37,686 nucleotides of DNA from a virus, in the IMG/VR virus record IMGVR_UViG_3300043409_000446, positions 1 through 37,686 of that record, one strand, 5' to 3'. The notes beneath the pieces were generated by a model. It was not told the origin of the DNA and ran no database searches. It saw nothing but the letters and a program-made list of their open reading frames with translations. A program made the position numbers and the translations under genes. Positions 24,246 to 27,042 of the stretch are shown in pieces; the stretch's first letter is position 1, and the number at the start of each line of letters is the position of its first letter.

Positions 24246-24437
24246 CTAGCCGACCAGTTCCTTGCGTTCGCGCACCGCGCGGAGCGCCGTGTAGCGCTGA
24301 TGCAGCCGCGTCAGGACCGTCGAGCGCGCCGCGGGCTGGCGGGCCTGCTCCCGCGCCAGCAACGCCTGCACTTCCGCTTCGGTCAGCCGGTAGAGGCAAT
24401 CGTTTAGCGCCCGCCAGCTCAGTTCCTCATCAGCCAT
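24246..24437 (-). CDS. Small Arg-rich phage protein
   Basis: The 63-residue protein (MADEELSWRALNDCLYRL start) has the motif EAEVQALLAREQ, then STVLTRLHQRYTALRAVRER near the end. Short proteins with RLHQR-ALR-RERxEL occur in many phages beside helicases and are of unknown function; they look like small helical nucleic-acid or protein binders. ATG 24437 overlaps the helicase stop by eight bases, so it is translated from the same message. A longer frame begins at 24452 but lies fully inside the helicase gene. Confidence 0.65.
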   Translation of the reverse strand: MADEELSWRALNDCLYRLTEAEVQALLAREQARQPAARSTVLTRLHQRYTALRAVRERKELVG

Positions 24438-25773
24438 CTTTAAGCTCCGCAATTGCTATGTCCGATATGGCGCGCTTGTCCCGCAACGCCAGAAGGATGC
24501 GCTCGTCAATAGTCTTATTACAGATCAGCAGATAACACCAGACCTCATGTAACTGCCCTCCCCGGTGCAGCCGCCCGATTGTCTGCTCGAACAGCTCCAG
24601 CGACCACGGCAGCGAGACAAAAATTATTTTGTTGCCCCCATACTGAAGGTTAAGCCCGTGGCCGGCGCTCTTGGGGTGGATCAACAGCAGTTCGATTTTG
24701 CCCGCGTTCCACCGCTCGACGGCGTTCGGGCTGTCGATGGTCTGCGCCTTCGGGTATCGGCGCTGTAGCTCGGCCAGTTCTTCCTTGTAGTTGTAGACGA
24801 CGATGGTGTTGGCGTGCTGGTTCTCGGACAGGATGTCGTCCAGCAGATCGAACTTGTGCGTCGATAACCAGTGCGGCGTCTGGCGCACGTCGAACTTGCC
24901 GGGGGCCGCGCTGGGCGTTGAGACGGTGCTGTAGACGAAGCCGGACGCCATCTGTTGCAGCTTGTTCGTCATGGCTGCCGCGTTCATGGCCGTGATCGTC
25001 GCGTCGCCCAGCTCGACCAGCAGGTCTTTCTTCATCTTCTCGTAGGGCGCGCGGTCGGGCATGTCGCAGCGCATTTCGACCGTGTGCAGCGGCGGCAGCT
25101 TGTCGGCGTACTCGCCGGGCTCCAGCACAAACGTCGCCGGGCGGATGTCCGCCATGACCTGCTCCAGCGCGCCGCGCCGTGGCGCCCACTCACCAAAGTC
25201 GCGGTTGATGCAGACAAAATACTTTTGCAAAAACGCGCCTTTCGAGCGCCCAAGCAGGTTCTGGTCCACCACCTTGCACTGGCCGAAAACATCCTCTAGG
25301 CCGTTTGATGTGAACGAGCCGGTCAGGCCCCAGCGGAACCGGAAGCGGTCGAGCTGGTCGAGCAACGCCTTGAACCGCTTGCCGGACGGGTTCTTGAGCC
25401 GCGTCAGTTCGTCGAATACGATGCCGTCGAACGACGACAGGTCCGGCAGCGACTGGATGTTGTCGTAGTTGGTGACGACCACCTTGGCGTTGCTGGCGAA
25501 GGCCCGCGCGCGGGCGGCGGGCGATCCGACAGCCACGACGATTGGCATGTCGGGCGTCCACTTGGGGCCTTCGACAGGCCAAACATCGGTGCAGACGCGC
25601 TTGGGCGCCAGCACCAGCCAGCGCCGTGTGTGCCCGTCAAGCAGCATCTGCCGCATGGCCGTCAGCGTCAAAGCTGTCTTGCCTGCGCCCACGGCGGCCA
25701 GCACCATCGCGCGATCATGTTCGTAGAGGAAGTCGGCAGCGGCGTCTTGGTAGTCTCTAAGGGCGAGCGTCAA
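24430..25773 (-). CDS. SNF2-type DEAD/DEAH helicase
   Basis: The 447-residue protein has [20 protein letters not shown] (Q-motif-like), Walker A AAVGAGKTAL (residues 26-35), LVLAPKRV (motif Ia), the Walker B-type VFDELTRLKN, and GLTGSF (motif III). The C-terminal lobe has LLIHPKSAGHGLNLQYGGNK (motif V), and motif VI reads IGRLHRGGQ. Such compact SNF2-like enzymes are common in phage replication modules and translocate on double-stranded DNA. TTG 25773 is the start, with AGGAG seven bases before it, and overlaps the end of the methyltransferase gene by 17 bases. Confidence 0.9.
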   Translation of the reverse strand: MTLALRDYQDAAADFLYEHDRAMVLAAVGAGKTALTLTAMRQMLLDGHTRRWLVLAPKRVCTDVWPVEGPKWTPDMPIVVAVGSPAARARAFASNAKVVVTNYDNIQSLPDLSSFDGIVFDELTRLKNPSGKRFKALLDQLDRFRFRWGLTGSFTSNGLEDVFGQCKVVDQNLLGRSKGAFLQKYFVCINRDFGEWAPRRGALEQVMADIRPATFVLEPGEYADKLPPLHTVEMRCDMPDRAPYEKMKKDLLVELGDATITAMNAAAMTNKLQQMASGFVYSTVSTPSAAPGKFDVRQTPHWLSTHKFDLLDDILSENQHANTIVVYNYKEELAELQRRYPKAQTIDSPNAVERWNAGKIELLLIHPKSAGHGLNLQYGGNKIIFVSLPWSLELFEQTIGRLHRGGQLHEVWCYLLICNKTIDERILLALRDKRAISDIAIAELKDG

Positions 25774-26785
25774 GGAAGGCTCCTACGACTTCGGCCGCGA
25801 CTTGCGGGACGATCGCGTTACCGTAGGCGCGCAGTCGTCCCACTCGGGCGGTAGCCCCATGAGCCAGCGGGAATGTGCCGGGTTCAACTGGCCGCCACTT
25901 TCCATCTCGGCAGTAGAGCCAGTCAGCATCTCGCCAGACGCCGTTAACCGGGCCGGGGTGGTGTAAGCTGCCGTTCGCGGTAGAGAGATCTGTTTCCGCC
26001 CCTCTATGTCCGACTGCCCCGCCTTGGCATCGTAGGCGTTCGGCGTCGGCCAACCCGCCGTTTTCGCTACGATACCCAGCTTCTTGTGCAGCCCACCCAA
26101 GTTGGGATTTCTCGCCTTCGCGGTTGCTTGCCGGGCCTCCCACTGTTCCACCGTCTCGTTGGTGTTCACCGTGTCCGCCACGCACGGCGTCGGCCAACCC
26201 GCCAGCGCCGCGTCGTTCGACAGCGCCCCGCCCGACTGGTTCGGGCCTCCGTTCGTCCCGTCCGTCGCTCTCGGTGTATTCCAGCCTTTCTCCAACAAAC
26301 CAGAGCCGTTGTCTGATATGCGGCGCGCCGAAGCCCGCAGCGCAGAGATCGACCGCCCCGAGGGCGTAACCCGCACCTTCCATGTCAGCGTGTACAAGGT
26401 CGAGCCAACCGAGGCCGTCCTTGCTCGCAACCTGTTCGCCAAAGACGACTGGAGGGCGGCGCTCGCCAATGAGGCGGAAGAAATCGGGCCAGAGGTGGCG
26501 GGCGTCATCGACGCCGCCGCGCTGTCCGGCTGCGCTGAAAGGTTGACAGGGACAGGAGCCGGTCCAGACGGGCCGGTCGTCGGGCCACCCGGCAAGACGC
26601 AAAGCATGGCTCCAGACGCCGACGCCGGCGAAGAAGTGGCATTGGCTGAAACCTTTAAGGTCGTCAGGTTGAACATCGACAATTGAACGGGTATCGACTT
26701 CGCCATCAGCGATTAATCCTTTCGCAATCAGATTGCGCAGCCATTGCGCGGCATATGGTTCGATTTCGTTGTAGTAAGCAGCCAT
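25757..26785 (-). CDS. C5 cytosine DNA methyltransferase
   Basis: The 342-residue enzyme has motif [13 protein letters not shown] (51-62), the catalytic loop [12 protein letters not shown] with Cys80, motif VI as FGEQV (115-119, Asn replaced by Gln compared with the usual ENV), motif VIII QRLWFVG (159-165), and motif [16 protein letters not shown] at the C-terminus. A Gly/Arg-rich variable region (about 170-290) contains GGLADA repeats and would hold the target-recognition part. It would methylate cytosines, probably to evade host restriction. ATG 26785 has GGGGG upstream and overlaps the nuclease gene. The ENV-to-EQV change is unusual but seen in some phage enzymes. Confidence 0.88.
25783..26706 (-). 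CDS. Nested +1-frame ORF within the methyltransferase gene (GWPTP/GLPPEW family)
   Basis: A 307-codon ORF lies wholly inside the methyltransferase gene in another frame of the same strand. It has its own ATG (26706) and AAAGGA ten bases upstream. The product is Ser/Thr/Ala-rich at the start, then has [20 protein letters not shown] with [29 protein letters not shown], repeated [20 protein letters not shown] and [21 protein letters not shown] remember these motifs as recurring in proteins annotated separately in many phages and prophages. GWPTP is the shifted reading of the GLADA codons of the enzyme. Whether it is translated or only a by-product of conserved DNA is open. Confidence 0.5.
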
Positions 26786-27042
26786 GCGTCGATTTCCCCC
26801 TTTGACCATAACAGAGCGTAGTTCTGCCGCAGCGCCTTCAGTTCGTCGGCGTGCAGCTTCTGGAGCGGCGCGAGCCGCCCGCCCTTGGGGCGCTTCAGCT
26901 CCACGAACCATGTCGAGCCGTCCGGCAGGCAGGCAATGCGATCCGCCACGCCGCGCTGCTGCGGCGAGCGGAATTTGAACGTCTTGCCGCCGAGGCGCTC
27001 GACAGACCAGACGAAATATTTTTCGATTTCTTTCTCAAGCAT
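26728..27042 (-). CDS. VRR-NUC domain nuclease
   Basis: The 104-residue protein is a single VRR-NUC domain: LEKEIEKYFVWSVERLGGKT at the start, RGVADRIACLPDGSTWFVEL with the catalytic Asp and the E-L-K motif (FVELKRPKGG), then a Q-KLHADELKALRQ helix. Phage VRR-NUC proteins act on branched or flap DNA. It is the first gene of the leftward group with the methyltransferase and helicase. No ribosome site is clear before ATG 27042, so the message may be leaderless. Confidence 0.88.
   Translation of the reverse strand: MLEKEIEKYFVWSVERLGGKTFKFRSPQQRGVADRIACLPDGSTWFVELKRPKGGRLAPLQKLHADELKALRQNYALLWSKGEIDAWLLTTTKSNHMPRNGCAI

Follow-up and report, generated by a model that had tools for sequence, protein, structure and literature searches.

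The methyltransferase locus described here very likely encodes a two-subunit C5-cytosine DNA methyltransferase resembling M.EcoHK31I, with the genes of the two subunits superimposed in different frames of the same strand. On the sequence evidence, the larger product, alpha, would provide the catalytic part, and the nested product, beta, would supply motif IX and, probably, DNA recognition; we infer that both are translated and that they bind each other. Both frames are under purifying selection, and beta has a conserved start region of its own. The locus lies in a 37.7-kb virus record, analyzed over its whole length (the window), which also contains portal, terminase, major head, DNA polymerase, and primase genes. 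The two long reading frames are situated where the first-pass annotation had put them: alpha occupies 25757..26785 on the minus strand (342 codons plus stop), and beta occupies 25783..26706 on the same strand (307 codons plus stop) in relative frame +1. The locus is flanked on one side by an endonuclease-like ORF at 26728..27042(-), which matched PHROG 93 (endonuclease; E = 2.8e-22), and on the other by a SNF2-type helicase gene at 24430..25773(-), identified from the ORF list and from domain and PHROG searches, which overlaps the end of alpha by 17 nt. A 200-codon antisense ORF (window 26084-26686) is also open across the overlap.

Homologues were selected using the alpha protein only, yielding 160 loci: 80 from IMG/VR and 80 from GTDB genomes. 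In nearly all of these, the +1 frame was open over almost the whole gene, approximately twice as far as after synonymous-codon permutation; the openness of the +2 frame in the same loci was only that expected by permutation. In a G+C-rich gene, codon composition together with conservation of the methyltransferase frame could yield a nested ORF as a by-product. Indeed, high G+C content lengthens off-frame ORFs: permuted genes had a mean open stretch of 150 codons, and for the window alone the observed stretch of 309 codons corresponded to a p value of only about 0.01. Across the homologues, the excess of nested-frame openness was overwhelming. Moreover, stops vanished exactly at the beta start site, which is not expected of a by-product. 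Among 105 non-redundant loci, nested-frame stops were at or above expectation up to about alpha codon 38. The three 10-codon bins that follow contained 1, 0, and 0 stops versus 22, 10, and 14 expected, and later bins contained none versus 55, 42, and 33 expected. In 87% of loci, a start codon accompanied by a Shine-Dalgarno-like 4-mer was present upstream, compared with 27 ± 4% by permutation. In the window, the beta ATG is at 26706-26704 and an AAAGGA ribosome-binding site lies 10 nt upstream, at 26717..26722(-); both elements were first noted from the sequence. Automatic classification of motif frames in all fetched loci recorded 318 nested arrangements, all of which are in relative frame +1, with no example in +2; this figure is not a count of independent cases because many of the loci overlap or are near-identical.

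Substitutions in each frame were evaluated in 202 close pairs, with each sequence used in at most three. The ratio of nonsynonymous to synonymous changes in the nested frame, NN/NS, was 1.11 outside the nested gene (alpha residues 1-26) and 1.00 at alpha 41-80, then 0.74, 0.58, 0.46, and 0.44; the alpha ratio, NN/SN, was 0.14, 0.16, 0.31, 0.33, 0.86, and 0.35 along the gene, both sets of values being approximate because the pairs are phylogenetically non-independent and multiple hits were left uncorrected. Substitutions that are synonymous in alpha and change beta dropped from 0.55 to 0.17 per site. Beta is under purifying selection from about residue 55-80 onward; the substitution test revealed no amino-acid constraint on its first ~50 residues. 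Alpha is under purifying selection everywhere except at residues 166-278, where it is nearly neutral. In this interval, the fastest codon position was position 1, the wobble position of the nested frame (0.295/0.173/0.184).

A column-wise two-way test agreed with the substitution test. The beta GWxTPxxxD modules, L85, L93, STLYxLTWK, LRAS, and a 23-residue segment were conserved far beyond what alpha imposes, and the conservation of GLADA in alpha hardly exceeded what beta imposes. The first-pass annotation had matched GGLADA repeats in one frame base for base with GWPTP repeats in the other. Indeed, alpha 195-200 and 243-248 share bases with beta 170-174 and 218-222. GLADA did not hold up as an independent motif: in the column-wise test it is a shadow of GWPTP and, given the pattern of selection on both frames, it is therefore a by-product and GWPTP the selected reading. 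An apparent excess of conservation in the +2 frame follows from nested constraint on shared bases, and that frame is not open; the test concerned was therefore used only for the regional profile.

Based on the permutation across homologues, the stop boundary, and the substitution test, a compositional origin of the nested ORF was rejected. It is extremely unlikely in view of the synonymous constraint and wobble pattern of the nested frame, of nested residues conserved far above expectation given the alpha protein, and of the confinement of the effect to the +1 frame. The nested frame is genuine. The proposal of a large dual-coding gene is supported, with no stops from the predicted start on and a nested ratio of 0.44-0.58 over the C-terminal two thirds versus 1.0-1.1 outside the nested gene and at its N-terminus. 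The overlapping-frame selection test that had been suggested along with this proposal was passed by the nested frame on both stop absence and substitution ratios.

The catalytic part is readily recognized in alpha, which matched PF00145 (E = 1.5e-14, above the cut-off) and PHROG 363 (E = 9.8e-84). Its FAGVG, PCQP (with the catalytic PCQ), EQV, and RQR motifs were nearly invariant in 66 homologues. Alpha was compared, using hhalign, with a profile of conventional single-chain C5 methyltransferases from host genomes. Motifs I-VIII aligned with an E value of 1.8e-15, and the best match of the C-terminus was motif X (LRAYGNAIV; E = 0.0022), spanning alpha 317-339 (23 residues; 25769..25837(-)). 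No motif IX was found in alpha in this comparison. In the AF2 model of alpha, the catalytic domain was confident and matched M.HhaI, residues 184-274 were disordered, and neither an ordered small domain nor a folded target-recognition domain was present.

Beta matched PHROG 1008 (E = 1.6e-36) and PHROG 31772 (E = 7.8e-34), both labelled 'DNA methyltransferase'; searches of Pfam and NCBIfam yielded no family for it. In hhalign, the best match of the beta C-terminus was motif IX (E = 0.008 versus RxLTPRExARLqGFPdxF), a match that is short and only moderately significant alone. It spans beta 272-291 (20 residues; 25834..25893(-)), is overprinted on a 14-residue segment of alpha, and draws further support from the column-wise and substitution tests. 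The GLPPEW block once thought to close the nested product is indeed present, at beta 284-289, and is not terminal but ends 18 residues before the C-terminus. On this assignment, motif IX lies in beta and motifs I-VIII and X lie in alpha. The AF2 model of beta was confident only at residues 80-127, which form a helix and a hairpin, and poor elsewhere (mean pLDDT 59.6). The conserved helix and hairpin (beta 81-127; 26326..26466(-)) contain L85, L93, STLYxLTWK, and LRAS, and overlap the motif VI-VIII region of alpha; both frames are constrained there. A PDB sequence search using the beta profile gave no match, and Foldseek using the beta model gave no significant match.

The absence of a fold match and the long N-terminal part of beta, which has no recognized methyltransferase counterpart, would be consistent with beta being a separate protein, either a regulator or inhibitor of alpha or a product of unrelated phage function, rather than an enzyme subunit. 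This is unlikely, however, as motif IX occurs in beta and is absent from alpha, and as relatives exist in which the beta segment is either in one chain with the catalytic motifs or carries motifs IX and X together. Among these independent arrangements, loci L244 and L421 each encode one chain, read in a single frame, with motifs I-VIII, WPTP modules, LxPxxVExLMGFP, and motif X; L244 matched both window alpha (3e-10) and the beta profile (2e-9). In three distinct relatives, L213, L246, and L248, alpha is short (motifs I-VIII) and is only partly overlapped by a beta that contains WPTP modules, IX, and X; the L213 beta matched the beta profile at 1e-21. The early idea that the second product is a partner of the enzyme is strengthened by motif IX in beta and by the single-polypeptide relatives. 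L244 retains a nested remnant and may therefore be a derived, secondary fusion rather than the ancestral state.

For two subunits to be made from this locus, ribosomes would initiate at two sites: at 26785 for alpha and, in the +1 frame, at 26706 for beta. Initiation at the second site would be either independent or a re-initiation following the upstream ORF. The upstream endonuclease-like ORF of the window enters alpha in the beta frame and terminates 21 nt short of the beta ATG, which suggests re-initiation. As an upstream ORF in the beta frame ending inside alpha was present at 58 of 154 loci, translation of beta may be coupled to termination of the upstream gene. Programmed ribosomal frameshifting from alpha would instead produce a fused alpha-beta protein. 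In favor of such a fusion, motifs VIII, IX, and X follow one another along the DNA, in frames 1, 2, and 1, and single-chain relatives (L244 and L421) exist. Nevertheless, the beta frame contains no stops as far back as an internal start that has a ribosome site, and this boundary favors independent internal initiation over frameshifting. Moreover, the conserved beta residues 80-131 overlap alpha motifs VI-VIII, both of which one frameshift product cannot hold, and a second shift would be needed to reach motif X. Frameshifting is thus disfavored by the internal start boundary and, overall, very unlikely. Alpha would fold as a catalytic domain providing SAM binding, the catalytic PCQ, motif VIII, and motif X, with no folded small domain, and beta would add motif IX and variable GWxTP modules at the position of the target-recognition domain. 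Co-translated, alpha and beta would together make a complete enzyme, since beta would fill in both the missing motif IX and the recognition-domain position.

The GWxTPxxxD modules lie at 25951..26290(-), a segment that corresponds to alpha 166-278, is nearly neutral in the alpha frame, and is disordered in the alpha model. Based on its position and variability, this part of beta is the probable target-recognition region. We lean towards the view that, in this large family of phage methyltransferases, the target-recognition domain, and hence sequence specificity, resides in the GWxTP modules of beta, the matching part of alpha being an unselected linker. If so, specificity would evolve in a frame ignored by most annotation. 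Public records mostly annotate one of the two frames, or both as 'DNA methyltransferase'; given this habit, specificity predictions from alpha alone would probably target the wrong protein.

Split methyltransferases are already known, and with M.EcoHK31I as precedent the kind of arrangement is not new. In M.EcoHK31I, motifs I-VIII and X are on the large polypeptide and only motif IX is on the small one; in M.AquI, the small polypeptide carries both IX and X (PMC3404938). The window shares the I-VIII plus X/IX split with M.EcoHK31I, a two-polypeptide C5 methyltransferase recognizing YGGCCR, to which we liken it by motif distribution. The two differ in that the target-recognition domain of M.EcoHK31I is described as part of the large subunit, whereas the selection pattern in the window puts the variable, recognition-like region in beta. 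In the window, the gene of the second polypeptide lies inside that of the first and is read in another frame; reportedly, the same is true of M.EcoHK31I, whose small-subunit gene Lee et al. are said to have placed, in 1995, inside the large-subunit gene in another frame. M.AquI, a two-polypeptide C5 methyltransferase recognizing CYCGRG, resembles the window in that its second polypeptide carries motif IX together with the recognition region (a probable one in the window). In contrast to M.AquI, the window has motif X on alpha and an almost completely nested beta; L213, L246, and L248, with IX and X on beta, have M.AquI-like content. The single-chain enzymes M.HhaI and M.HaeIII have the same motif order along the DNA (I-VIII, recognition domain, IX, X), but in the window two of these elements, the probable recognition region and motif IX, lie in a frame other than that of the remaining ones.

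Some phage records already list this nested product, with the relative frame seen here: as the 'putative Mte8-like protein' of K1ind2 (ADA82427), as gp50, 'g49 internal gene', of Paenibacillus phage Diva, and in Pseudomonas phage PMG1. These records use the labels 'DNA methyltransferase', 'Mte8-like', or 'hypothetical', and a motif IX subunit role is not stated in them. Given these records and M.EcoHK31I, the locus is therefore a further case of a known arrangement. A literature search for Mte8 and for phage internal methyltransferase genes found nothing explanatory. Phage N15 has the same arrangement with only alpha (gene 58) annotated. In the PMG1 record (locus L162, 1381-2142), only the nested frame is annotated, as 'DNA methyltransferase'; alpha is unannotated, and the frame is broken in its N-terminal part. 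The present analysis appears to contribute three things: evidence, at population scale, that both frames are constrained, a view of how labour is divided along the gene, and the assignment of the recognition-like region to beta.

The same-strand overlap is long, about 920 nt, its two products are apparently parts of one enzyme, and it has been kept in phages and prophages of several bacterial phyla. One chain, a partly overlapping pair, and a fully nested pair form a natural series for studying how an enzyme is split into overlapping genes. Some copies deviate from this series. A Nitratireductor prophage copy (L120:2501-4120) contains an insertion of ~195 codons within the overlap, immediately following motif IX; neither frame is interrupted by it, and the nested frame is HNH/zinc-finger-like by eye, with no Pfam match. 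In Mycobacterium phage Llama (L165, 1025-1784), alpha is split over two annotated genes in different frames, and motif IX is in a third. Finally, at L216:2311-3078 and L233:2209-3243, the alpha N-terminus is fused in frame to the beta C-terminus and motif X is in another frame; these are possibly broken copies.
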